This document shows positions 17,380 to 56,908 of a DNA stretch of 64,000 nucleotides, one piece after another. Both the position numbers and the translations under genes were made by a program. This stretch comes from Variovorax sp. 54. Its GTDB lineage: Bacteria; Pseudomonadota; Gammaproteobacteria; Burkholderiales; Burkholderiaceae_C. Location: contig NZ_PEFF01000001.1 in NCBI RefSeq assembly GCF_002754375.1, forward strand, positions 6,403,501 to 6,467,500, given 5' to 3'. The notes under the pieces were generated by a model. It had not been told where the DNA came from. It worked only from the letters and a program-made list of their open reading frames with translations, and did not search any database. Each line of letters begins with the position of its first letter. Within the stretch, counting starts at the first letter, position 1.

Positions 17380-17715
17380 TTACTGGTTGGTGAAGCGCTG
17401 ATGGACGCGTGGGCCCATCGAGCCGGGCAGGCCGCCCTTGAACATGCTGTTGATTTCTTTCATCTGGCGCCGTGCGGCCGATTCGCCGTCGATGGCGCTC
17501 AGCGCAACCATCACGTCCTGACGCAGGTACCAGAGGGTTTCGACATCGACCGCAAAGCGCACGCGTTGGCTGATGCGCTGGACCGATTGGCCGCTTCGGC
17601 CCTGAAGCACCGACAGCATCGCCGTGCGAATGCGGCCGAGCTGACTTTCACCAGCCCGCTGCGATCCCAGGCCGGGTACGTTCAGGAGCTGAAAAAGGCG
17701 GCGAAAGAGCAGCAT
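17380..17715 (-). CDS. Hypothetical protein, basic, 111 residues
   Basis: No known family recognised. The sequence is basic and helical (LLFRRLFQLL at the N-terminus, SVQRISQRVRFAVDVETLWYLRQDVMVAL in the middle, MKEINSMFKGGLPG near the end) with no signal peptide. The middle stretch WYLRQDVM and the C-terminal GGLPG give it the look of a conserved small soluble protein. It converges on ldcA, the two 3' ends separated by the hairpin at 17325-17365. Upstream is the AT-rich spacer that could hold its promoter. Confidence 0.6.
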   Translation of the reverse strand: MLLFRRLFQLLNVPGLGSQRAGESQLGRIRTAMLSVLQGRSGQSVQRISQRVRFAVDVETLWYLRQDVMVALSAIDGESAARRQMKEINSMFKGGLPGSMGPRVHQRFTNQ

Positions 17716-18046
17716 GTCACGAAAAGCGTATTGCCGGGAGCTGGGACGGTCGCTACCTTAAGCCTCAGTTCGCCGCGACACAAGATGTGAAACACCGTTT
17801 CTTGTTTGCAAACAACACGCTTTAGCGGTCACTTTTGTTGTTATTTGAATTTTGAGTTCAAAAGTATTAAAAAACTTTAGAACTCATCTGCACGATGCGC
17901 CAAGTCGCCCCCTCGTGCAAAGTCGACAAGAAGGTTCTGCGGATCGTTCCTTGCATGTGATGGCGCATGTCGGGGAAACTTCTCGCAGGAGCGGCGAAAG
18001 GTCCTGAGCAATATAACCAGCGCTTGCTGCCACAAGAAAAAACAGT
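17716..18046. other. 331-base AT-rich divergent intergenic region
   Basis: No gene seen. The stretch 17760-17880 is strikingly AT-rich for this genome and contains an inverted repeat TTTGAA-N7-TTCAAA (17844-17862) and a run of A residues. A TATAAC hexamer at 18012-18017 could be the -10 of the cyclase gene. It probably serves as promoter region for both flanking genes. Confidence 0.5.
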
Positions 18047-39408: not shown

Positions 39409-39615
39409 CTACTCGAGCGTGAAGCCGATCTTCACCGTCACCTGCCAGTGCGCGATCTTGCCGTCCACCACATGGCCGCGCGTCTCGGTGACGGTGAACC
39501 ACTGGATGTTGCGCACCGTCTCGTGCGCCTTGGCGATGGCGGTCTGCACCGCGTCTTCGATGCTCGTGGGGGACGAGCCGGTCAGCTCGAGCGACTTGTA
39601 GACATGGTTCGACAT
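39409..39615 (-). CDS. Dodecin flavoprotein
   Basis: 68 residues behind AAGGAGCAG. Complete dodecin fold: [45 protein letters not shown] (flavin-stacking Trp), [16 protein letters not shown]. Forms a dodecamer that stores or buffers flavin. Its nearness to three flavin-dependent monooxygenases may be meaningful. Confidence 0.95.
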
Positions 39616-39992: not shown

Positions 39993-40107
39993 GCCGCGCG
40001 ACCCCGCAGATTCCAGATATCGATAGAGGAATTCAGCGCAAACGGCCCGCGCGATGGCTCGCAGAATTTGAAGCACACCCGCTTCCACTGCGCCATCGCC
40101 GAACACC

Positions 40108-41115
40108 GTGTCCTACTCGCTTTCCCTGCTCGACAAGAGCCTGATCCCCGAAGGTGCCGACGCCGCGCAGGCGTTCCAGCACACCATCGCGCTGGCCCAG
40201 CGCGCCGAACGTCTGGGCTACCGGCGCTACTGGCTGGCCGAGCACCACGGCAACCGCACCTATGCGGGCTCGGCGCCGGAAGTGCTGGCCTCGCATCTGC
40301 TCGCGAAGACCTCGCGCATCCGCATCGGCACTGGCGGCGTGATGCTGCAGCACTACAGCCCGTTCAAGGTCGCGGAGACCTTCAAGGTGCTGGCCTCGCT
40401 GGCGCCCGGCCGCGTCGACCTGGGCATCGGCAAGGCGCCGGGCGGCCTGCCGCTGACCAGCAAGGCGCTGCAATCGCTGCACGATCCGGTGAAGGCGAAG
40501 GCGCTCGATTTCGAAGCGCGCCTGCAGGAGCTCGATGCCTTCCTGCACGACGGCGTGCCTGCCGACCATGCACTGGCAGGTGCGGTCGCCACGCCGTTCC
40601 CGCCGCAGCCGCCGCAGCGCGTGCTGCTCGGCGGCAGCCCCGAGAGCGCGTTGCTTGCGGCGCGGCTGGGTTGGCAGTTCGTCTACGCGGGTCACTTCAA
40701 CGGCGACCCCGTGAACATCGAGCAATCGATCGACGCGTATCGCACCGCGACCGGCCGCGCGCCGCTGCTCGCGCTCTTCGCCTTTGCGGCCGAGACGCAC
40801 GACGAAGCCGCGCAGTTGGTGGGCGCATTGCGCAGCTTCCGCGTGACCCTGTCCACCGGCCAGAGCGTGAACCTGCCGAGCCTCGAAGCCGCTGCCGAGT
40901 TCGCACGGCAGGCCGGCGCCAGCGACTACCGCACCGAAGAACGGCGTCCGCATGTCATCGCCGGCACCGGCGACGAGGTGCGCGACGCGCTCGATGCCCT
41001 CAGCGCGCGCCACGGCATCGAGGAGTTCGTGATCGACATCCCGGTGGCGAACTTCGCCGCGCGTGCCACGGCGGTCGAGCTGCTGGCGCAGGCCCGCGAG
41101 CCCGCACTGGCCTGA
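40108..41115 (+). CDS. LLM-class flavin monooxygenase, MsnO8/CmoO-like
   Basis: 335 residues from GTG 40108. Luciferase-like TIM barrel: [79 protein letters not shown] and [14 protein letters not shown], the hallmark blocks of the MsnO8 subgroup to which Bacillus subtilis CmoO (YtmO) belongs. Needs reduced FMN from a separate reductase, not seen here. First gene of a tight operon with a CmoJ-type monooxygenase, M20 deacylase, GNAT and amino-acid ABC importer. That set is the logic for C-S cleavage of N-acetylated cysteine conjugates. Confidence 0.9.
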
Positions 41116-41158
41116 GCGTCTTCTCTTTTCCTTTCTTCCCATCACAAGAACGATCGTC

Positions 41159-42499
41159 ATGAGCAACATCCAGTTCGGCGTCATGCTGCAAGGGGCCGGC
41201 AGCCACATGAATGCCTGGAAGCACCCGGGCGGCCCGGCCGATGCCAGCGTCAACCTCGACTTCTTCATCCGCAACGCGCAGAAGGCCGAGGCCGCGGGCA
41301 TTGCCTTCGCCTTCGTGGCCGACGGGCTCTACATCAACGAGAAGTCGATCCCGCACTTTCTCAACCGCTTCGAGCCGATCTCCATCCTCTCGGCGCTGGC
41401 CGCCGTCACCTCGAAGATCGGCCTGGCGGGCACCATCTCCAGCTCGTACAGCGACCCGTTCACGGTGGCGCGGCAGTTCGCTTCGCTCGACCTCATCAGC
41501 GGCGGGCGCGCGGGCTGGAACGTGGTGACCACGCCGCTCGAAGGCAGCGCCAAGAACTACAGCCGCGCGCACCCCGAGCACGCGCTGCGCTACGAGATCG
41601 CCGACGAGTACCTGGCCGTGACGCAGGGCCTGTGGGACAGCTGGGACGACGACGCCTTCGTGCGCGACCGCGAGAGCGGCCAGTTCTTCGACCGCGACAA
41701 GCTGCACACGCTGGACCACAAGGGCCGCTTCTTCCAGGTGGCGGGGCCGCTGAACATCCAGCGTTCGCCGCAGGGCCAGCCGGTGATCTTCCAGGCCGGC
41801 TCGTCGGACGCGGGCATCGGCCTCGCGGGCAAGTACGCCGACGCGGTGTTCACGCATTCGCCGTCGCTCGAAGACACGCGCGCGTTCCTGAAGCAGGTGA
41901 AGGCCAGTGCCGTGGCGCAGGGGCGGCAGGCGGGCGACGTGAAGATCTTCCCGGGCATCGGCCCGGTGGTCGCTGCCACCGAGGCCGAGGCCGAGGCCAA
42001 GTACCTCGCCATCCGCGCACTGCTGACGGTCGAAGAGGCGTTGGCCTACCTGGGCCGCTTCTTCGACCACCACGACTTCAGCCAGTACCCGCTCGATGCG
42101 CCGTTTCCCGAACTGGGCGAGATCGGCCGCAACAGCTTCCGCTCGACCACCGACCGCATCAAGGCGAATGCCAAGGCCAAGGGCCAGACGCTGCGCGAAG
42201 TGGCGCTCGAAGTCGCCACGCCGCGCACGCAGTTCGTGGGCACCGGCGAACGCATCGCCGACGAGATCATCCGCTGGGTGGACGAGGGCGCGGCCGATGG
42301 TTTCATCCTCGGTTTTCCGGTGCTGGGGCAGGGCCTGGACGACTTCATCGAGTTCGTGGTTCCCGCACTGGAGGCCCGCGGTCGCTACCAGCGCACGCTG
42401 CCCGGCCAGACCCTGCGCGACCACCTGGGCCTGCCGCGCAAGGCGAGCCGCCATGCGCTGCCCCAAGGCGACGCTGCCATCGAGCGGAAAGCCGCCTGA
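41159..42499 (+). CDS. NtaA/SnaA/DszA-family flavin monooxygenase, CmoJ-like
   Basis: 446 residues from ATG 41159. Features of the NtaA/SnaA/DszA family: [106 protein letters not shown] and [17 protein letters not shown]. Uses reduced FMN to oxidise a sulfur- or nitrogen-containing substrate. Bacillus CmoJ (YtnJ) is of this family. The spacer from the previous gene is a pyrimidine tract with no clear ribosome site. The stop overlaps the M20 gene (TGATG). Confidence 0.9.
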
Positions 42500-43719
42500 T
42501 GGGCGCCGCATTGCCACGCCCGGCCCTCAAGGACATCCACCGCGTCGAATCGACCATCGCCGGCTACGGCGACGCGTTCATCGCGCTGCGACGCGACATT
42601 CACCAGCACCCCGAGCTGTCGTTCAAGGAGCACCGCACCTCGGCGCTCGTGGCCGAGCGGCTCGCGGCCTGGGGCTACGAGGTCACGACCGGCCTGGCCG
42701 GCACCGGCGTGGTGGGCACGCTGCGGCGCGGGCCGGGGCGCAGCCTCGGCATCCGCGCCGACATGGACGCGCTGCCGATCCACGAAGCCACCGGCCTGCC
42801 GTATGCGAGCGAAAACGCGGGCGTGATGCATGCCTGCGGCCACGACGGCCACACGGCGATCCTGCTTGCGGCGGCGCGCTTCCTCGCCGAAGCGGGCGCC
42901 TTTCGGGGCACCTTGCACCTGATCTTCCAGCCCGCCGAAGAACTCGGCGCAGGTGCCAAGAAGATGATCGATGAGGGCCTGTTCACGCGCTTCCCGTGCG
43001 ACGCCGTCTTCGGCCTGCACAACTGGCCCGGCGTGAGCACGGGGCATGTGGGCTGCGTCACCGGGCCCGCGATGGCGGCCATCGACCAGGCACACATCAC
43101 GGTGCGCGGCAAGGGCGGCCACGGCGCACAGCCGCACGAGACGGTCGACCCCGTGGTCGCGAGCGCGCACCTGATCGCGGCGCTGCAGACCTTGGTGTCG
43201 CGCAACGTCGATCCGCTGGACATGGGCGTGATCACGGTGGGCTCCATCCACGGCGGCGAGGCCTCCAACGTGATTCCGAACACCGTCGAGCTCAAGCTCA
43301 CGGCACGTTCGTTCAAGCCCGAGGTGCGCGCGCTGCTGGCGCGGCGCATCCCGGCACTGGCGCGGGCGCAGGCCGAGAGCTTCGGCGCCGAGGCCGAGGT
43401 CGACTACCGGCCGGGCTTTCCGCCAGTGGTCAACCATGTGGAAGAAACCGCCTTTGCGCGCGCGGTGGCGCTCGACACCTTCGGCGCGGAGCGGGTCGAT
43501 CCGGCCTTCCGCCCGCGCACCGCCAGCGAAGACTTCGCCTACATGCTGCAGGCGCGCCCCGGCAGCTACGTGTTCTTCGGCAACGGCGAGAGCGCCTCGC
43601 TGCACAGCCCGCGCTACGACTTCAACGACGCGATCCTCGCGCCCGCGGCCGTGTACTGGGCGCGCCTGGCCGAGCGCTTTCTTTCCGCCGACAGCGACCT
43701 GCAGGAAACCACCCCATGA
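42499..43719 (+). CDS. M20-family N-acyl-amino-acid deacylase
   Basis: 406 residues. Metal-dependent amidohydrolase of the M20D group: [72 protein letters not shown] (catalytic Glu), [17 protein letters not shown] and [11 protein letters not shown]. In this context the likely substrate is N-acetylcysteine or a related N-acetylated product, as for SndA/SndB of Bacillus subtilis. Overlaps the genes on both sides by 1-4 bases. Confidence 0.9.
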
Positions 43720-44248
43720 GCGAACAGTTTGTCTACACCACGCCGTTGGACCCACGGGCCCGGCCGTTGATCGAAGGGCTCACCTTCGAGTACGACAGCC
43801 GCTACGGCGATGTGATGCGCGAGCCCGGCGCACCGCGCGAGATCGACCGCTACGCGCCCGAGGTGTTCGCACCGCCGCACGGCAACTTCGTGCTGCTGCT
43901 GCGCGACGGCGTGGCGATCGGCGGCGGCGCCTTCATGCGCCACGACGAGCGCACCGCCGAACTCAAGCGCGTGTGGACGCACGGCGCGCTGCGCCGCCAG
44001 GGCCTCGCAAGCCGCGTGTTGGCCGAGCTGGAGGCGCAGGTGCTGCGCCAGGGCTACGAGCGCATCTACCTCACGACCGGCTTTCGCCAGCCCGAGGCCG
44101 TGGGCCTGTACCGCAGCCATGGCTACACGGCGCTGTTCACGGACGACGCCGATCCCGAGACGCCGCGCAAGCTGCCGTTCGAGAAGCACCTGGCGCAGTG
44201 GGCCGCGCAAGGCCGTGCCGGTGCAGCGCTGAGCGGGGCGGTGTCGCG

Positions 44249-44252
<4 letters not shown>
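43716..44252 (+). CDS. GNAT acetyltransferase, SnaA/SnaB-like role
   Basis: 178 residues, overlapping the M20 gene by four bases. GNAT features: [31 protein letters not shown], the acetyl-CoA loop [16 protein letters not shown], then [24 protein letters not shown]. Size and place between an M20 deacylase and an amino-acid importer match the N-acetyltransferases SnaA/SnaB, which acetylate S-substituted cysteines before cleavage. The substrate is inferred from context only. Confidence 0.85.
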
Positions 44253-46075
<1,823 letters not shown>

Positions 46076-46116
46076 GCTTTTTCTTCTTTTCTCCTTTTTC
46101 CAACCGACCGCTTTTC

Positions 46117-47040
46117 ATGACCCATCGACGCCATCTCCTGTTCGTTCTTCTGGCCGCTTTGCTGCCGATCGCCGCCACGGCCCAGACCGCCCCGGCGCCC
46201 GACCTGAGCCCCGAGCAGCCGGGCCGCCCGCGCGCGCAGAGGATCGAAGAGGCCGTGCGGCTCGCGAAGGACTTCAAGTTCCAGAAGGAAGGCGTGCTCG
46301 TCGTCGGCACCACCACCGGCCGGCTGCCGTTCGCGGCCTACGCCACCGACACCAAGACGCCCGTGGGCAACGCGCCCGACATCGCGCAGCTCGTGGCCGA
46401 CAGCCTGGGTCGCAAGCTGGAGCTGGTGTCCACCGCCTGGGCCGACTGGCCGCTAGGCCTGCAGTCGGGCAAGTTCGACGTGGTGGTGTCGAACGTGACT
46501 GTCACCGAAGAGCGCAAGGAGAAGTTCGATTTTTCGACCTACCGCAACGACCAGCTGGGCATCTACGTCAAGTCGGACAGCAAGCTCGGCGCCATCAAGG
46601 AGCCCAAGGACATCGCGGGCCTGAAGCTCATCGTGACGGCCAGCACGAACCAGGAGCAGATCCTGCTGCGCTGGAACAAGCAGAACCTCGCCGCCGGGCT
46701 CAAGCCCATCGAGATCCAGTACTACGACGACGATGTGGTGCAGCGCCTGGCCATCCAGTCGGGCCGCGCCGATGCGTACGTCGGCCCCAATGCGATCGCG
46801 GCCTACGAGGCACGCGACGGCAAGACCCGGCTCGCGGGCCTGGTGTCGGGCGGCTGGCCGCTCAACGCCGAGATCGCCGTCACCTCGCGCAAGGGCTCGG
46901 GCATTGCCGAGGCCGTGACGCTGGCGCTGAACACGCAGATCAAGAACGGCAACTACGGCAAGGCGCTGTCGCGCTGGAACCTGGCATCGGAGGCGATCGA
47001 GGTGGCACGCACCAACCCGCCCGGCCTGCCGAAGCACTGA
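46117..47040 (+). CDS. Family-3 amino-acid ABC substrate-binding protein (copy 1)
   Basis: 307 residues with a signal peptide (FVLLAALLPIAATAQ). SBP_bac_3 fold: GVLVVGTTTGRLPFAAYATDTKTPVGNAPDIAQLVADSLG, AWADWPLGLQSGKFDVVVSNVTVTEERKEKFDFSTYR and YYDDDVVQRLAIQSGRADAYV. It delivers an amino-acid-like solute, probably an S-substituted cysteine. Closely resembles the next gene, so a tandem duplication. The spacer from the permease-ATPase gene is a pyrimidine tract without a ribosome site. Confidence 0.9.
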   Translation: MTHRRHLLFVLLAALLPIAATAQTAPAPDLSPEQPGRPRAQRIEEAVRLAKDFKFQKEGVLVVGTTTGRLPFAAYATDTKTPVGNAPDIAQLVADSLGRKLELVSTAWADWPLGLQSGKFDVVVSNVTVTEERKEKFDFSTYRNDQLGIYVKSDSKLGAIKEPKDIAGLKLIVTASTNQEQILLRWNKQNLAAGLKPIEIQYYDDDVVQRLAIQSGRADAYVGPNAIAAYEARDGKTRLAGLVSGGWPLNAEIAVTSRKGSGIAEAVTLALNTQIKNGNYGKALSRWNLASEAIEVARTNPPGLPKH

Positions 47041-47052
47041 GGGGCGGGGACC

Positions 47053-47979
47053 ATGTCGCTCAAGAAAAAACTGGGGGCGCTGGCCGCCCTCGGGCTGATC
47101 GCGCTCGCGCCGGCCCAGGCCGCCGACCCTTTCGACTTCAGCCCCGCGCAGCGCAGTCGCCTGCACACGGGCAAGGACGCCGAGGCCGTCAACGCCATTC
47201 CGCCCAACTTCAAGTTCGTGAAGGAGGGCGTGCTGACCATCGCCATCGCGCCGTTCGCACCGCCGATCTCCACCTACGCCACCGACGCGAAGACCGTGGT
47301 GGGCTTCGACCCCGACTTTGCCCACCTCATCGCCGAGGCGCTGGGCCTGAAGCTGGAGCTGCAGCCCATCGCCTGGGCCGACTGGCCGCTGGGCCTGAGC
47401 TCGGGCAAGTACGACGCCGTGATCTCCAACGTGGGCGTGACCGAGCAGCGCAAGGAGAAGTTCGACTTCTCGACCTATCGGCTCGGACTGCACGGCTTCT
47501 ACGTGCGCACCGACAGCGCCATCCAGTCGATCAAGGAGCCGAAGGACGTGGCGGGCCTGAAGCTCACGACCGGCGCCGGCACCAACCAGGAACGCATCCT
47601 GCTCGAATGGGACCGGCAGAACGTGGCCGCGGGCCTGAAGCCGGTGTCGATCCAGTACTACGACGACGATGTGACGCGCTGGCTGGCGGTGACGACCAAG
47701 CGCGTCGATGCCAACTTCAACCCCAACGCGCCGCAGGCCTACGAGGCCGCGAAGAACGGGCTACTGCGGCTCGCAGGGACGGTCAACGCGGGCTGGCCGC
47801 TGAAATCGGACGTGGCCGTGGCCACGCGCAAGGGCAGCGGCCTGGCCGTGGCGCTCACCACCGCGGCCAACGGCCTGATCCGCAGCGGCACCTACGCCAA
47901 GGCGCTCGCGCGCTGGCGCCTCGCGGAAGAGGCGTTGCCGAAGTCCGAGGTCAACCCGCCCGGATTGCCGAAGTTCTGA
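47053..47979 (+). CDS. Family-3 amino-acid ABC substrate-binding protein (copy 2)
   Basis: 308 residues, signal peptide ending near APAQAA. Same blocks as copy 1: EGVLTIAIAPFAPPISTYATDAKTVVGFDPDFAHLIAEALG, AWADWPLGLSSGKYDAVISNVGVTEQRKEKFDFSTYR, YYDDDVTRWLAVTTKRVD. The GTTTGRL loop of copy 1 is replaced by IAPFAPPI, which would lie near the ligand pocket, so the two may bind different solutes through the same permease. Twelve bases after copy 1. Confidence 0.9.
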   Translation: MSLKKKLGALAALGLIALAPAQAADPFDFSPAQRSRLHTGKDAEAVNAIPPNFKFVKEGVLTIAIAPFAPPISTYATDAKTVVGFDPDFAHLIAEALGLKLELQPIAWADWPLGLSSGKYDAVISNVGVTEQRKEKFDFSTYRLGLHGFYVRTDSAIQSIKEPKDVAGLKLTTGAGTNQERILLEWDRQNVAAGLKPVSIQYYDDDVTRWLAVTTKRVDANFNPNAPQAYEAAKNGLLRLAGTVNAGWPLKSDVAVATRKGSGLAVALTTAANGLIRSGTYAKALARWRLAEEALPKSEVNPPGLPKF

Positions 47980-47998
47980 CCCTGCGAGCCACACGACC

Positions 47999-49039
47999 AT
48001 GACCATCCACCACATCGGTTTTCTCACGCCCGGCAACTACGACGAGGCCGACCCGCACGCGGGCCTCGAAGCTGCGCTGCGGCTGTTCGAGTTCGGCGAG
48101 CGGCGCGGCTTCGACAGCGCCTGGGTGCGCCAGCGCCACCTGGAGCGCGCCGTGTCGTCGGCGCCGACCTTCCTGGCCGCCGCCACGCAGCGCACGCGCC
48201 GCATCGAACTCGGCGCGGCCGTGATCCAGATGGGCTACGAAAACCCGTTCCGGCTGGCCGAAGACCTCGCCACCGTCGACGTGCTCTCGCGCGGGCGCCT
48301 GCAGGTGGGCCTGAGCGCGGGCGCGCCGCCGCATGGCGCCTTGCTGGGCGGTCGCTTCCAGGACGCACCGCCGGCCACCATCGACTTCACGCACAAGCGC
48401 GTGGCGCGGTTGCGGGCCAACCTCGAAGACGTGCTGCTGGGCGATGAAGACACGGTGATCGAATCCGCCGGCGGGCGCGTGCGTCCGCGCGTGCAGCCCT
48501 ATGCGCCCGGCCTGGTCGGGCGGCTCTGGTACGGCGGCGGGTCGCTGCGCTCGGCCGAATGGGCGGGGCGCAACGGCTTTCATCTGCTGCTGGGCAACGT
48601 GCTCACGGGCGAGACCACCGACGATTTCCTCGAAGCCCAGACCGGCCTCGTCGAACGCTACCGCGCCAGCGAAGTGCCGGGCGCACGCGGACGGATCGCG
48701 TTGGGTCGCGTGATCGTGCCGCTCGATGGGGCCGATGCCGCCACGCGACGCCGCTACCGCGCGTTCGCGGCCGGGCGCGTCGAACGCACGCAGACGCCGC
48801 AGGGCGAACGCCGCACGCTGTTCGCCGGCGACCTCGTGGGCAGCGCCGACGAGATCCTGGAGCGTCTGCATCGCGACCCGGTGCTGCCGCTGGTGAGTGA
48901 GCTGCGCGTGGAGCTGCCCTACAACTTCGACAGCGAGGCCTACGAGCAGATTCTTGACGACATCGCCGTGCGCATCGCGCCCGAACTGGGCTGGCGCGTG
49001 CGTGCCGAACTATCACGAGAAGCAGTAGCGCTCGCCTGA
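47999..49039 (+). CDS. LLM-class flavin monooxygenase (third of the cluster)
   Basis: 346 residues. Bacterial-luciferase-like barrel: IHHIGFLTPGNYDEADPHAGL, GERRGFDSAWVRQRHLERAVSSAPTFLAAATQRTRRIELGAAVIQMGYENPFRLAEDLATVDVLS with GRLQVGLSAG, then PGLVGRLWYGGGSLRSAEWAGRNG. Different subgroup from the first LLM of the operon. Twenty bases after the second binding protein, so part of the same transcript. It probably widens the range of C-S compounds handled. Confidence 0.88.
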   Translation: MTIHHIGFLTPGNYDEADPHAGLEAALRLFEFGERRGFDSAWVRQRHLERAVSSAPTFLAAATQRTRRIELGAAVIQMGYENPFRLAEDLATVDVLSRGRLQVGLSAGAPPHGALLGGRFQDAPPATIDFTHKRVARLRANLEDVLLGDEDTVIESAGGRVRPRVQPYAPGLVGRLWYGGGSLRSAEWAGRNGFHLLLGNVLTGETTDDFLEAQTGLVERYRASEVPGARGRIALGRVIVPLDGADAATRRRYRAFAAGRVERTQTPQGERRTLFAGDLVGSADEILERLHRDPVLPLVSELRVELPYNFDSEAYEQILDDIAVRIAPELGWRVRAELSREAVALA

Positions 49040-49158: not shown

Positions 49159-50109
49159 ATGTCGATCTTCAGCAGATGGTGGCGCGCCGCGTCCCTCGCC
49201 ACGCTGACCTTTCTGGCCACCGCGCCCGCTGCCTTTGCCCAGGCCTCGGCCGACGGCAGCGGCCCGCTGGTCTCGACCGACTGGCTCGAGAAGAACCTGC
49301 GCAACCCGAAGCTGCGCGTGATCGAGGTCAGCGTGAACCCGGGCCTGTACGAGCGCGGCCACATTCCGGGCGCGGTGAATTTCTCGTGGCACAACGACCT
49401 CAACGACCGCGTGCGCCGCGACATCGTGAGCCAGGCCGAATTCGAGAAGCTGCTGTCGACCGCCGGTGTCGACAAGGACACCACCGTCATCCTCTACGGC
49501 GACACCAACAACTGGTTCGCGGCCTGGGGCGCCTGGGTGTTCGACCAGTACGGCGTGCAAAACGTGAAGCTGCTCGACGGCGGACGCAAGAAGTGGGAAG
49601 CCGAGAACCGCGTGCTCGACAACCGCGCGCCCGAACACGTCGCCACGCGCTTCAAGGTGACGCAACCCAACCCGCAGCTGCGCGCAAGGCTGGCCGATGT
49701 GCTGGCCGTGGCCGAGGGCCGCTCCGACGCGAAGCTGGTCGACATCCGCTCGGCCGACGAGTACAGCGGCAAGATCTTCGCGCCGGCCGGCGCCGCCGAA
49801 CTGGCGGTGCGCGCGGGCCACGTGCCCGGTGCGGCCAACGTGCCCTGGGGCCGTGCGGTGAATGAAGACGGCACCTTCAAGTCGGCCGCCGAGCTGAAGG
49901 CGATCTACGCGGCCGTGGGCATCGACGGCAGCAAGCCGGCCATCACCTACTGCCGCATCGGCGAACGCTCGAGCCACACCTGGTTCGCGCTGCACAAGAT
50001 CCTGGGCTACAAGAACGTGCGCAACTACGACGGCTCGTGGACCGAGTACGGCAACGCCGTCGGTGTGCCGGTCAACAACCCGGCCGGCACGGTGTGGGCG
50101 TCCAAATGA
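49159..50109 (+). CDS. Exported sulfurtransferase (two rhodanese domains)
   Basis: 316 residues from ATG 49159, behind AAGGAG. A signal peptide (LATLTFLATAPAAFAQ) places it in the periplasm. First rhodanese domain inactive-looking (about 35-155; VIEVSVNPGLYERGHIPGAVNF, VILYGDTNNWFAAWGAW). Second has the active loop ITYCRIGERSSHTWF with the catalytic Cys and ends with YDGSWTEYGNAVGVPV, the 3-mercaptopyruvate/thiosulfate sulfurtransferase signature. It moves sulfane sulfur from thiosulfate or similar donors. Ends before a strong terminator. Confidence 0.92.
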   Translation: MSIFSRWWRAASLATLTFLATAPAAFAQASADGSGPLVSTDWLEKNLRNPKLRVIEVSVNPGLYERGHIPGAVNFSWHNDLNDRVRRDIVSQAEFEKLLSTAGVDKDTTVILYGDTNNWFAAWGAWVFDQYGVQNVKLLDGGRKKWEAENRVLDNRAPEHVATRFKVTQPNPQLRARLADVLAVAEGRSDAKLVDIRSADEYSGKIFAPAGAAELAVRAGHVPGAANVPWGRAVNEDGTFKSAAELKAIYAAVGIDGSKPAITYCRIGERSSHTWFALHKILGYKNVRNYDGSWTEYGNAVGVPVNNPAGTVWASK

Positions 50110-50185
50110 TTGAGTTGAGGTGAGATGAGTTCGAGGTGAGTCGGCGTTGGAGGGACCTCGCGGCCTCTCTGATGAGCGACATTGG

Positions 50186-50211
50186 GCGAGCCCTCGGGCT
50201 CGCTTTTTTTT
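50186..50211 (+). terminator. Rho-independent terminator
   Basis: GCGAGCC (50186-50192) and GGCTCGC (50197-50203), then eight T. It closes the rhodanese transcript and lies only 25 bases before the next start codon. Confidence 0.9.
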
Positions 50212-50236
50212 GGGGTCAACACAAAGGGGCCGGGGC

Positions 50237-51448
50237 ATGTCCGCTTCGTCAATCAACGCGGCGCCTGCGCCGCTTTCTCGCACGGGCCTGGCCGCTGCTG
50301 TCGTGGTGTTGCTGCTGATCGCGGCCGGCGTGCATCTGCTGGGCGGGCGCAGCGGCGGCCGCGCGCTGGCCTTCGCACTTGGGCTGGGCGCGGTGCTCGG
50401 CGTGGTGCTGCAGCGCTCGCGCTTCTGCTTCTATTGCCATGCGCGCGACTACTTCGAGGGCGGCGATGCGCGCGGCCTGCTGGCCATCGTGGCCGCGCTC
50501 GCGGTCGGCACCGTGGGCATGCACGTCGTCATGACCGGCTGGCTGCCCGTTCCGCAGCCGGGGCGGTTGCCGCCCGATGCGCACATCGGCCCGGTCAGCG
50601 GCGCGTTGGTGCTGGCAGGGCTGGCGTTCGGCGCGGGCATGGTGGTATCGGGCTCGTGCATCAGCGCGCACTGGTACCGGTTGGGCGAGGGCTCGCCGAC
50701 CGCACCGTTCGCGTTGCTCGGTTCCGCAGCGGGCTTCCTGCTCGGCTTCGCGAGCTGGAACTGGCTTTACAGCGCCACCATCGCCACCGCGCCCGTGGTG
50801 TGGCTGCCGCATCACCTGGGCTATGCGGGCTCGGCCGCGCTGCAGTTGGCGGTGCTCGCGGTGCTGAGCGCCTGGCTCTGGCGAAAGCTGCCGGCGGGAG
50901 AGGCTGCATTGCCCGCACCGCGCAGCTTCATCGACGCGGCGCGCCGCCTGCTGCACGGGCGCTGGCCGTATGCCTGGGGCGGCCTCGCGGTCGGCGCGAT
51001 CGCCGTGATCGTGGTGTTTCGGCTGCGCCCGCTGGGCGTGACGGCTGCGTTGGGCAGCGCCGCGCGCGACCTCGGCAACGCACACGGCCTGCTGCCGCAG
51101 CGCCTGGACGGGCTCGACGGGTTCGGTGGCTGCGTCACGTCGGTGGTCGAAAGCCTTTGGCAAACACCCAATGCGTTGCTGGTCGGCGGCCTCGTGGCGG
51201 GCGCGCTGGCCGCAGCGCTCGCGAGCGGGCAGTTCAAGCCCACCTGGCCGAGCGTGGGGCAAGTCGTTCGCGGGCTCGGCGGCGGCGTGCTGCTGGGGTG
51301 GGGCGCGATGACCGGGCTGGGTTGCACGGTCGGCAACCTGCTCTCCGGCACGATGGCCGGTGCGCTGTCGGGCTGGGTGTTCGGTGCGAGCGTGCTGCTG
51401 GCGGTGTGGGGTGGGCTGCGGTTGAAGCGCCTTGCGGCGAGGGCGTGA
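50237..51448 (+). CDS. YeeE/YedE-family sulfur-compound transporter
   Basis: 403 residues with about nine to ten membrane helices. Cys-containing motifs of the YeeE (TsuA) thiosulfate transporter family are present: LQRSRFCFYCHARDYFEG, MVVSGSCISAHWYRLGEG and GLGCTVGNLLSGTMAG. The periplasmic rhodanese just upstream fits a thiosulfate or sulfane-sulfur path. Its ATG lies directly after a terminator, so expression needs readthrough or a promoter in 50110-50185. Direct repeats GAGTTGAGGTGAG / GAGTTCGAGGTGAG lie there. Confidence 0.9.
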   Translation: MSASSINAAPAPLSRTGLAAAVVVLLLIAAGVHLLGGRSGGRALAFALGLGAVLGVVLQRSRFCFYCHARDYFEGGDARGLLAIVAALAVGTVGMHVVMTGWLPVPQPGRLPPDAHIGPVSGALVLAGLAFGAGMVVSGSCISAHWYRLGEGSPTAPFALLGSAAGFLLGFASWNWLYSATIATAPVVWLPHHLGYAGSAALQLAVLAVLSAWLWRKLPAGEAALPAPRSFIDAARRLLHGRWPYAWGGLAVGAIAVIVVFRLRPLGVTAALGSAARDLGNAHGLLPQRLDGLDGFGGCVTSVVESLWQTPNALLVGGLVAGALAAALASGQFKPTWPSVGQVVRGLGGGVLLGWGAMTGLGCTVGNLLSGTMAGALSGWVFGASVLLAVWGGLRLKRLAARA

Positions 51449-51475
51449 CCGCCGTTGATCGCTGCGCGGCAGACA

Positions 51476-51493
51476 CCGCATTTCCATATGCGG
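51476..51493. promoter_or_regulatory. Inverted repeat CCGCAT-N6-ATGCGG
   Basis: A perfect six-base palindrome 119 bases before the peptide-type importer operon. Possible operator. Confidence 0.35.
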
Positions 51494-51611
51494 AGTCCTT
51501 CTTTCGGAGCGGTGCGGCGCAGGGCACAGTCCCTCACGCATCGACAGGCACGTGTCCACGCACAGCGGCCATCTGCCTGTTTCAACTTCACAAGAACACC
51601 CGAGGGATTCC

Positions 51612-53201
51612 ATGTTCCGACCACTTCTGACCGCGGCCCTGCTGGCCGCCGGCCTGCTGCAGGCGTCCGTCGCCACCGCCGAAACCGTGCGATGGGCGCG
51701 CAGCGCCGACCCGGCCACGCTCGACCCGCATGCGGTCAACACCGGCACCAACTTCGGGTTGCTGCACCAGATCTACGAGCCGCTGATCCTGCGCGGCGCC
51801 GACAGCAAGCTGCAGCCCGCGCTGGCCACCTCGTGGAAGCTCACGGCCGACCCGACGGTGTGGGAGTTCAAGCTGCGCCCCGGCGTCAAGTTCCATGACG
51901 GCGCGCTGCTCACGGCCGACGACGTGGTGTTCTCGCTGCAGCGCGCGCAGGCGCCGAGCTCGGCGCTCAAGTCGCTGCTGTCGTCGGTGGCCGAGGTGAA
52001 GAAGGTCGATCCGCTCACGGTGCACGTGCGCACCAAGGGCCCGAACCTGATCTTCCCGAACAACCTCACGAACCTCTTCATCCTCAACGAAGCCTGGGCC
52101 AAGGCCAACAAGGCCGAGCAGTCGCAAGACGTGGCCAGCAAGACCGAGAACTTCGCGACCCGCAACGAGAACGGCACCGGCCCCTACGTGCTGGCCTCGC
52201 GCGAGGTCGATGCGCGCACGGTGCTCAAGCAGTTCCCGCAGTACTGGGGCCGCGGCCAGTTTCCGCTGGACGTGACCGAGCTGGTCTACGTGCCGATCAA
52301 GTCGCCCGCCACGCGCGTGGCCGCGCTGCTGTCGGGCGAGGTCGATTTTGTTCAAGACCTGCCGGCGCAGGACGTGGGCCGGCTCAAGGCCGACAAGCGC
52401 CTGCGCGTGACCGAAGGGCCCGAGAACCGTTCGATCTTCCTGGGCCTGAACGTGGGTGCGAAAGAGCTCAAGTACGCCGACGTGAAGGGCAAGAACCCGC
52501 TGGCCGACCCCAAGGTGCGCGAGGCCATCGGCGTGGCGATCGACCGCGACGCGATCAAGGCGGCCGTGATGCGCGGCCTGTCGAACCCCTCGGGCATCAT
52601 CGCGCCGCCTTTCGTGCACGGCTACGAGAAAGGCTTCGCGGCCTACCCGAAGGCCAACGCCGCGCAGGCGAAGAAGCTGCTGGCCGAAGCCGGCTACCCG
52701 AACGGCTTTGCGATCACGCTGCACACGCCGAACGACCGCTACGTGAACGACGAAGCCATCAGCACGGCGGTGTCGGGCTTTCTGGGCCGCATCGGCATCA
52801 AGACCACGGTGGCGGCGCGCCCGATTGCGCTGCACAGCACCGCCATCAACTCGGCCGACACCGACTTCTACCTGTTCGGCTGGGGCGTGCCGACCTACGA
52901 CTCGGCCTACATCTTCGATTACCTGGTGCACACGCGCGGCAAGGACGGCCGCGGCCCGACCAACGCCACCGGCTACAGCAACGCCGAGGTCGACGCGCAG
53001 ATCGCATCGCTGGCCGCCGAAAGCGACAAGGCCAAGCGCGACGCCACCATCAAGCGCATCTGGCAAACCGTGCAGAAAGAGCGCATCTACATCGCGCTGC
53101 ACGACCAGGTGCTCAACTTCGCCTCGACCCCGAAGCTCGACATTCCGGTCAGCCCCGACGGCAGCGTGTTCTTCAAGAACGTGAAGGTGGCGAAGCCTTA
53201 A
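51612..53201 (+). CDS. Family-5 (peptide/nickel type) ABC substrate-binding protein
   Basis: 529 residues from ATG 51612 with signal peptide (AGLLQASVATAE). SBP_bac_5 fold: VRWARSADPATLDPHAVNT, IYEPLILRGADSKLQPALATSWKL, WEFKLRPGVKFHDGALLTADDVVFSLQRA, NGTGPYVLASREVDARTVLK, LADPKVREAIGVAIDRDAI and a late LFGWGVPTYDSAYIFDYL. First gene of a complete four-gene importer. The solute could be a peptide, glutathione or another conjugate; the sulfur neighbourhood points to glutathione-like molecules, which is inference. Confidence 0.92.
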   Translation: MFRPLLTAALLAAGLLQASVATAETVRWARSADPATLDPHAVNTGTNFGLLHQIYEPLILRGADSKLQPALATSWKLTADPTVWEFKLRPGVKFHDGALLTADDVVFSLQRAQAPSSALKSLLSSVAEVKKVDPLTVHVRTKGPNLIFPNNLTNLFILNEAWAKANKAEQSQDVASKTENFATRNENGTGPYVLASREVDARTVLKQFPQYWGRGQFPLDVTELVYVPIKSPATRVAALLSGEVDFVQDLPAQDVGRLKADKRLRVTEGPENRSIFLGLNVGAKELKYADVKGKNPLADPKVREAIGVAIDRDAIKAAVMRGLSNPSGIIAPPFVHGYEKGFAAYPKANAAQAKKLLAEAGYPNGFAITLHTPNDRYVNDEAISTAVSGFLGRIGIKTTVAARPIALHSTAINSADTDFYLFGWGVPTYDSAYIFDYLVHTRGKDGRGPTNATGYSNAEVDAQIASLAAESDKAKRDATIKRIWQTVQKERIYIALHDQVLNFASTPKLDIPVSPDGSVFFKNVKVAKP

Positions 53202-53222
53202 GCACACACACGCACGCACACC

Positions 53223-54188
53223 ATGTGGGTTCATCTCTTGCGCCGGCTCGGCCAGTCCGTGCTGGTGCTGCTGGCGGTGTCGTTCGTGTCCTTCCTGGTG
53301 TTCCGCCACATCGGCGATCCGACCATCAGCCTGCTCGGCGAAGACGCCACGATCGAAGAACGCGCCGCGCTGACGGCCGAACTGGGCTTCGACCGCCCGG
53401 TGCCCGTGCAGTACCTGCGCTACGTGGGCCATGCGCTGCAGGGCGACCTGGGCGTGTCGTACCGGCTCAAGCGGCCGGTGGTCGAACTCATCGCCGAGCG
53501 CTTGCCGGCCACGCTCGAACTGGCGCTGGTGGCGGCCGTGCTGGCGGTGGCGGGCGGCGTGGCGCTGGGCGTGTACACCGCGATCCGGCGCGACAGCGTG
53601 GCGAGCCGCGCGGTCATGGCGGTGTCGCTGGTGGGCGTGTCGCTGCCCACCTTCCTGATCGGCATCGGGCTCATCTACCTGTTCGCGGTCGAGCTGCGCT
53701 GGCTGCTGTCGTTCGGGCGCGGCGACACGGTGCAGCTGGGCGGCTGGAGCACCGGGCTGCTCACGGCCTCGGGCTGGGCCTCGCTGCTGATGCCCGCGCT
53801 GACGCTGGGCTTGTACAAGCTGACGCTGATCATGCGGCTGGTGCGCGCCGAGATGCTGGAGGTGCTGCGCGCCGACTACATCCGCTTCGGCCGCGCGCGC
53901 GGGCTGCGCGAGCGCGACCTCAACTACGGCCACGCGCTGCGCAACACGCTGATCCCGGTCATCACCATCACGGGGCTGCAGATCGGCTCGCTGGTCGCCT
54001 TTGCCATCGTCACCGAGACGGTGTTCCAGTGGCCGGGCGTGGGCCTGCTGTTCATCACGTCGATCCAGGGGGTGGACGTGCCGGTGGTGGCGGCCTACCT
54101 GCTGCTGATTGCGCTGCTCTACGTGGCGATCAATTTCATCGTCGACCTGTTGTATGTGCTGGTCGATCCGCGCCTGCGGCGCGCCTGA
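53223..54188 (+). CDS. DppB/GsiC-type ABC permease
   Basis: 321 residues, six membrane helices. LLRRLGQSVLVLLAVSFVSFLVFRHIGDP is the usual start; GFDRPVPVQYLRYVGHALQGDLGVSYR and the cytoplasmic loop YIRFGRARGLRERDLNYGHALRNTLIPVITITG contact the ATPase. Second gene of the importer. Confidence 0.95.
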   Translation: MWVHLLRRLGQSVLVLLAVSFVSFLVFRHIGDPTISLLGEDATIEERAALTAELGFDRPVPVQYLRYVGHALQGDLGVSYRLKRPVVELIAERLPATLELALVAAVLAVAGGVALGVYTAIRRDSVASRAVMAVSLVGVSLPTFLIGIGLIYLFAVELRWLLSFGRGDTVQLGGWSTGLLTASGWASLLMPALTLGLYKLTLIMRLVRAEMLEVLRADYIRFGRARGLRERDLNYGHALRNTLIPVITITGLQIGSLVAFAIVTETVFQWPGVGLLFITSIQGVDVPVVAAYLLLIALLYVAINFIVDLLYVLVDPRLRRA

Positions 54189-54209
54189 ATCTTTTTCCCT
54201 CTTTCCCGA

Positions 54210-55147
54210 ATGACGTCTTCTTCTTCGACCGGCGCCCCCGCGCCGCGCCGCTGGCGCAACGCCGAGTCGCCCGTGCTGCGTGCCTTTGCACGCTCGCGCA
54301 CCGTGCAGCTGGCCGCCTTCGTGCTGCTGCTGGTCGCACTGGCCTCGCTGTTCGCGCCGTGGATCGCGCGGCAAGACCCCTTCGATCCGGCTGTGCTCGA
54401 CCTGATCGACGCCTTCACGCCGCCGGGGCAGCAGGGCGCTTCGGGCGCCTTCTATCCGCTGGGCGCCGACGACCAGGGGCGCGACGTGTTCTCGGCCATC
54501 CTCTACGGGCTGCGCATGTCGTTGCTGGTGGGCGTGAGCGCGGTCGGGCTGTCGCTGGCCATCGGCGTGCCGCTCGGGCTGGCGGCCGGCTATGCGGGCG
54601 GCTGGTTCGATACGCTCGTGATGCGCGTGGCCGATGTGCAGCTGACCTTTCCGGTGCTGCTGGTGGCGCTGCTGATCTTCGGCATCGCGCGCGGCCTGCT
54701 GCCCGCGGGCTACCGCGACGACATGGCGGTGTACGTGATCGTCGCGGCCATCGGGCTGTCGGAGTGGGTGCAGTACGCGCGCACGGTGCGCGGCGCGGTG
54801 ATGCTGGAAAAGCACAAGGACTACGTGGCCGCCGCGCAGATCATCGGCCGCTCGCACACCGGCATCCTGGTGCGGCACATCCTGCCGAACCTGCTGGCGC
54901 CGATGCTGGTGATTGCCACCATCAGCTTCGCGCTGGCCATCGTGGCCGAGTCGACGCTGTCGTACCTGGGCGTGGGGCTGCCACCCACGCAGCCGTCGCT
55001 GGGCACGCTGATCCGCATCGGGCAGGGCTTCCTGTTCTCGGGCGAGTGGTGGATCCTGCTGTTTCCCGCGCTGGTGCTGCTGGCGCTGGCGCTGTCGGTC
55101 AACCTGGCGGGCGACTGGCTGCGCGACGCATTGAACCCGAGGCTGCA

Positions 55148-55151
<4 letters not shown>
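54210..55151 (+). CDS. DppC/GsiD-type ABC permease
   Basis: 313 residues, six membrane helices. DppC-type blocks: FYPLGADDQGRDVFSAILYGLRMSLLVGV, DVQLTFPVLLVALLI, DYVAAAQIIGRSHTGILVRHILPNLLAPMLV (EAA loop) and STLSYLGVGLPPTQPSLGTLI. The spacer from the previous gene is a pyrimidine tract with no ribosome site. Ends overlapping the ATPase gene by four bases. Confidence 0.95.

Positions 55152-56908
<1,757 letters not shown>

Follow-up and report, generated by a model that had tools for sequence, protein, structure and literature searches.

An operon of Variovorax sp. 54 with relatives of Bacillus CmoO and CmoJ and a probable role in sulfur salvage from S-alkylated cysteines

We found that an eight-gene operon of Variovorax sp. 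54 encodes two main enzymes that, judged by sequence, are akin to CmoO and CmoJ of the Bacillus ytm operon and not to the enzymes of the yxe operon. The operon probably salvages sulfur, as cysteine, from S-alkylated cysteines. It occupies positions 40108-49039 on the plus strand of a 64,000-nucleotide stretch of DNA (the window; contig NZ_PEFF01000001.1, positions 6,403,501 to 6,467,500), and the host genome of 6.64 Mb is a single contig. An earlier note, made from the sequence of this DNA, had assigned the genes to disposal of S-(2-succino)cysteine-type conjugates; in doing so it merged two Bacillus pathways, ytm and yxe. Our reading draws on the kinship of the CmoJ-like and CmoO-like enzymes, on a deacylase that is closest to YtnL, on the importer family, and on the pairing of CmoO-like and CmoJ-like genes in other genomes.

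The gene set and its relation to the ytm and yxe operons

Gene families were assigned with Pfam and NCBIfam. All eight genes described earlier were present, in frame and co-directional, and their junctions either overlap or leave gaps of at most 43 nt. There are overlaps at three junctions (1 nt between the CmoJ-like and M20 genes, 4 nt between the M20 and GNAT genes, and 4 nt between the GNAT and ATP-binding cassette (ABC) transporter genes), and the remaining four gaps are 12-43 nt. The first two genes encode a CmoO-like (YtmO-like) luciferase-family monooxygenase (40108..41115) and a CmoJ-like (YtnJ-like) monooxygenase (41159..42499). These are followed by an M20 deacylase, proposed to be an N-acetylcysteine deacetylase (42499..43719), and a GNAT N-acetyltransferase (PF00583; 43716..44252), proposed to N-acetylate S-alkylcysteine. 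The importer consists of a fused permease-ATPase of the polar amino-acid family (44249..46075) and two periplasmic binding proteins of family 3 (SBP_bac_3), SBP1 (46117..47040) and SBP2 (47053..47979), which are 57% identical. The last gene (47999..49039) encodes a third luciferase-family monooxygenase (Bac_luciferase), here called LLM3. Domains and coordinates thus agree with the earlier description of one compact operon with a third monooxygenase and a fused transporter, the latter having BPD_transp_1 (residues 110-306) and ABC_tran (residues 375-533) within a single chain of 608 amino acids.

We compared these proteins with the ytm operon (locus L078) and the yxe operon (locus L109) of B. 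inaquosorum, a close relative of B. subtilis. Most of the ytm gene names are those that we take to apply, having been assigned via gene order, family and identity to the solved YtnJ. The CmoO-like protein scored 337 bits against the MsnO8 family TIGR03558 (cut-off 167) and was 43% identical to YtmO over 329 amino acids. The CmoJ-like protein scored 519 bits against the NtaA/DmoA family TIGR03860 (cut-off 280), and was 57% identical to YtnJ (CmoJ) and 46% identical to YxeK. Trees were made by quick IQ-TREE searches with SH-aLRT support only, and several long branches were flagged in them. In the tree of the CmoJ family (82 rows), the Variovorax protein fell in a clade of 33 rows with YtnJ and proteins from Psychrobacillus and Paenibacillus (SH-aLRT 99), with YxeK outside. 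In the CmoO tree (42 rows), a clade of 25 rows with SH-aLRT support of 98 united the CmoO-like protein, YtmO and homologues from Psychrobacillus; four further Bacillus paralogues and one from the Variovorax sp. 54 genome itself (L123) fell elsewhere.

In Bacillus, CmoO is described as forming a sulfoxide and CmoJ as cleaving it in a flavin-dependent Pummerer-type reaction; the products are an aldehyde and N-acetylcysteine sulfenic acid, the latter being subsequently reduced and deacetylated (PMC10863075). The same source assigns the two enzymes to S-alkylcysteine salvage, a pathway that it terms widely distributed in soil bacteria. The B. subtilis route for S-(2-succino)cysteine is described as YxeL, YxeK and YxeP of the scm operon, with the lyase 2SL standing in for YxeK in other bacteria (PMC9706529, PMC12757645). 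Because CmoO and CmoJ are S-alkylcysteine enzymes, and S-(2-succino)cysteine needs YxeK or 2SL, the genes present speak for salvage of S-alkylcysteines. No lyase domain was found in the eight operon proteins; 2SL was not searched for elsewhere in the genome.

The M20 deacylase matches the M20 amidohydrolase family TIGR01891. Among the M20 proteins of the B. inaquosorum genome, the ytm-linked YtnL ranked first (43-44% identity), followed by another gene (41%) and YxeP (38%), and the motifs HACGHD, PAEE and LHN are common to the Variovorax deacylase and YtnL. The importer belongs to the same broad family as TcyJKLMN; its ATPase half was 49% identical to both TcyN and YxeO, and its binding proteins were 21-27% identical to TcyJ/K and about 28% identical to YxeM. 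The GNAT protein was weakly similar to YtmI (31% over 67 amino acids), and BLAST at E 1 did not match it to YxeL. Profile comparison with hhalign gave probabilities of 94.5 and 93.6% for YtmI and YxeL, respectively, on thin alignments, values that are alike and indicate the GNAT fold only. With similarity weak and the profile match alike for both, orthology of this protein to either Bacillus acetyltransferase, as the earlier note had implied, is unsupported.

In bacteria of the B. subtilis group, ytm comprises YtmI, TcyJKLMN, YtmO (CmoO), YtnI (CmoI), YtnJ (CmoJ), RibR, YtnL and YtnM. Like the Variovorax genes, this operon combines CmoO and CmoJ with an M20 deacylase and a GNAT protein, and it also encodes an ABC importer for polar amino acids with two family-3 binding proteins in tandem. 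In Variovorax, the GNAT and M20 proteins would provide the N-acetyltransferase and deacetylase expected beside CmoO and CmoJ. In contrast to ytm, the Variovorax operon has no CmoI redoxin, RibR or YtnM among its eight genes, a single fused permease-ATPase, the extra LLM3, a GNAT only distantly like YtmI, and no LysR gene among the scanned neighbours. The yxe (scm) operon for S-(2-succino)cysteine (YxeK, YxeL, YxeMNO and YxeP) shares acetylation, a monooxygenase, deacetylation and a family-3 importer. However, its one monooxygenase, YxeK, is from a separate branch, there is no CmoO among its open reading frames, and its M20 and GNAT proteins are less similar to those of Variovorax. The 2SL variant of the yxe locus follows a like pathway logic, with its lyase replacing the monooxygenase (PMC9706529), whereas the Variovorax operon is without a lyase domain.

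It is unlikely that the operon disposes of S-(2-succino)cysteine and that its CmoJ-like enzyme attacks N-acetyl-S-(2-succino)cysteine in the manner of YxeK. The logic of acetylation, breakdown and deacetylation would be alike, the CmoJ-like protein has 46% identity to YxeK, and the ATPase half is equally near YxeO and TcyN. However, the enzyme is closer to YtnJ, in a well-supported clade that excludes YxeK, a CmoO partner is found in the ytm locus and not among the open reading frames of the yxe locus, and the M20 deacylase is nearer YtnL than YxeP.

Scavenging of sulfur from some other compound (a sulfonate, a nitrilotriacetate-like chelator or a non-cysteine thioether), with the family labels misleading, is also improbable. 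The NtaA/DmoA family is broad, there is no known substrate for LLM3, and the PDB entry nearest to the CmoJ-like protein, 3sdo (638 bits), carries a title naming it a nitrilotriacetate monooxygenase of Burkholderia pseudomallei. We take that name to be an annotation with no assay result behind it. Scores against other structures were 549 bits for YtnJ, 259 for DszA and 225 for DmoA, compared to 222 for EDTA monooxygenase, and the complete gene complement, including GNAT, M20 and an importer for polar amino acids, corresponds to that of ytm.

Conservation of the operon and its variable components

The operon is a conserved but patchy module. Counting the Variovorax sp. 54 genome in each case, an orthologue of the CmoJ-like protein was present at 90-100% identity in 24 of the 101 genus genomes, at 78% or more in at least 11 of 250 genomes of the family (for which matches were recorded to E 1e-100 only), and at 79% or more in 6 of 300 genomes of the order. 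Proteins that were 98% identical to it, among the nr matches listed (120, from at most 8000 candidates scored), were named from Variovorax boronicumulans, and a protein of Acidovorax sp. GW101-3H11 was 86% identical. We compared the 24 loci of the genus, including the window, and 15 orthologous loci from other genomes, including one genome that also belongs to Variovorax. Among the latter, flanks were unseen at L068, a short contig, and at L071, which begins at the first gene.

A CmoO-like gene accompanied CmoJ in all 15 orthologous loci, and the CmoO-like, CmoJ and GNAT genes were kept in all 24 genus loci, which argues that the grouping is not due to chance. In the window the CmoO-like partner, a member of the YtmO clade, is the adjacent gene. 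The GNAT and the ABC fusion were found in 14 of the 15 orthologous loci, and the contig ends in the remaining one. At L058 and L059 the GNAT gene is elsewhere in the cluster, not between CmoJ and the transporter.

LLM3 was present in 19 of the 20 longer genus loci and in 10 of the 14 sufficiently long orthologous loci outside its own genome, and within the 300-genome sample of the order it was confined to the operon. Homologues with 65-71% identity, among the matches listed, came from Burkholderia, Paraburkholderia, Cupriavidus, Bosea and others. In the 42-row tree it was joined on a long branch by a paralogue from its own genome (L122). S-alkylcysteine salvage, as far as it is described in PMC10863075, PMC9706529 and PMC12757645, has no LLM3-like enzyme. 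Our guess is that LLM3 might broaden the range of substrates, perhaps by serving as a second S-oxidase or a dealkylase.

The M20 gene was found in 11 of the 15 orthologous loci, in 5 of the 24 genus loci and in 2 of the 20 longer genus loci. Because relatives outside the genus hold M20 at the same place, loss within the genus would be the simpler reading. Six genomes were checked for M20, and the four that lack it in the operon all carry other homologues (best 53-61%). The patchy distribution fits the redundancy described for the three N-acetylcysteine deacetylases of B. subtilis, ScmP, YhaA and YtnL (PMC12757645). Detoxification of imported N-acetylcysteine (mercapturate) conjugates, in place of sulfur nutrition and at least in genomes without M20, could account for the 19 genus loci at which M20 was undetected, but is very improbable, since the GNAT gene present in all 24 would be needless if conjugates arrived already acetylated, and the window locus itself has M20.

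Two of the four orthologous loci without M20 have a gene for an AstE/AspA-type deacylase near the operon (L058:781-1773 and L059:2881-3915; none at L063 or L067), a possible non-orthologous replacement at these two loci. We rejected it as a general stand-in because it was absent from all 20 longer genus loci, 18 of them without M20.

Homologues of the redoxin CmoI were found in nine loci of Bacillus, Psychrobacillus and Paenibacillus. No redoxin domain was found in the eight operon proteins; we regard such a redoxin as a trait of Firmicute loci and not as a defining one. Six of the 15 orthologous loci have a DUF3088 gene near the operon (L058:13077-13421, L060:14934-15278, L069:13686-14027, L072:13585-13929, and also L061 and L062), and DUF3088 proteins from other Variovorax species were named among the matches listed. 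The DUF3088 proteins have a GST/glutaredoxin-like (thioredoxin/GST-N-like) fold with an invariant Cys-Pro. Published predictions for this family place it in glutathione, electron-transport and Fe-S pathways. Profile comparison with CmoI gave no match (probability 0.2%), so the equivalence is limited to fold, cysteine and neighbourhood; on that basis DUF3088 could substitute for CmoI. At genus loci with no M20, AstE/AspA or DUF3088 gene, a distant deacetylase and redoxin would serve, or the product would differ.

There were no Flavin_Reduct or FMN_red domains in the operon genes or in the scanned neighbours (a subset of the window genes), in keeping with the earlier remark that no flavin reductase is present locally. 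Three PF01613 genes are present elsewhere in the genome. An FMN reductase was not found in the 20 longer genus loci. Downstream of the orthologous operon at L069 (1773-3520), there is an NADPH-dependent FMN reductase together with a further luciferase-family monooxygenase.

The proposed salvage route

Every reaction of the proposed route is modelled on Bacillus biochemistry. The binding proteins and the fused ABC transporter would import an S-substituted cysteine, the amino group of which would be acetylated by the GNAT enzyme. The CmoO-like enzyme would oxidize the thioether to a sulfoxide, and the CmoJ-like enzyme, using reduced FMN and O2, would cleave the C-S bond of the sulfoxide to give an aldehyde and N-acetylcysteine sulfenic acid. 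The sulfenic acid would be reduced by a thiol or redoxin, and the M20 enzyme would take off the acetyl group. Reduced flavin would be supplied by reductases encoded elsewhere.

Several observations weigh against S-alkylcysteine salvage by this route. The GNAT protein is not recognizably YtmI, the likeness of the binding proteins to TcyJ/K is slight, and the ATPase half does not favor TcyN over YxeO. The operon lacks a CmoI-like redoxin gene, its gaps are too small to hold one, and DUF3088 was not found in this genome. M20 was not detected at most genus loci, and the 20 longer ones yielded no gene for either AstE/AspA or DUF3088. Nothing in the Bacillus operon corresponds to LLM3, which 4 of the 14 orthologous loci also lack. 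The identity of the CmoJ-like protein to YxeK is high enough that substrates could overlap.

Most likely, the chemistry is that known from Bacillus, and what is new here is the extra enzyme and several swapped parts. More tentatively, and with less than even confidence, we suggest that the order carries a distinct three-monooxygenase form of S-alkylcysteine salvage. In such a form the helper slots would be variable (M20 or AstE/AspA; DUF3088 or nothing local, versus CmoI in Firmicutes), and LLM3 would be a dedicated third C-S-cleaving or S-oxidizing enzyme. The analysis corrects the earlier substrate guess and places a pathway known from Bacillus in a proteobacterial genus, with a testable list of parts. 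It also gives a pathway-level lead for LLM3 and for DUF3088, a poorly characterized family. Should LLM3 prove active, a flavin-dependent route of C-S cleavage, already notable for an enzymatic Pummerer rearrangement, would gain a further step.

Upstream element, neighboring genes and paralogues

There is a conserved element, ATATCGATA, at 40017..40025 on the plus strand, about 90 nt before the first gene. Every one of the 21 genus sequences that allowed comparison (window included; L199 was left out, having too little upstream sequence) had the core TATCGATA approximately 90 nt upstream of the first gene. The conserved block around it spans about 95 nt, and the sequence farther upstream differs. 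Outside the genus, the core was present in 3 of 13 upstream regions (L064-L066) and absent from 10. At L023:2890 it precedes a CmoJ-family gene by about 130-140 nt, and at L120:13166 in the Variovorax sp. 54 genome it is flanked by an ABC ATPase gene and a divergent gene, next to an ABC importer. L120 is the own-genome locus of a sister of the L023 gene; there the core is approximately 3 kb past the end of the CmoJ-family paralogue, not in front of it. These sites could possibly belong to a shared regulon.

The dodecin gene mentioned in the earlier note is indeed adjacent to the operon (39409-39615, minus strand), but it is not a constant partner. Dodecin was near the operon in 9 of the 20 longer genus loci, on the other side in two of them, and in 2 of the 15 orthologous loci (L063 and L069), and we rejected it as a functional partner. 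Directly downstream (49159-56908) are genes for a rhodanese, a YedE-type sulfur transporter and an oligopeptide-type ABC importer. These were rejected as parts of the operon, being present in 4, 4 and 2 of the 20 genus loci, respectively.

The CmoJ-family paralogue at L120 (8742-10028; genome positions 1568756-1570045) has a methionine- or sulfonate-like ABC importer alongside, as judged by eye. It was 44% identical to YxeK and 40% to YtnJ, yet it falls in the other large clade, and we rejected it as a YxeK orthologue. No GNAT or M20 matches were found among its called neighbors. At L073, an open reading frame (17710-18021) has, by eye, a YtmI/YxeL-like GNAT motif, in a locus with CmoO-like and CmoJ-like genes and an oligopeptide importer. 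This is possibly a second layout of the pathway.

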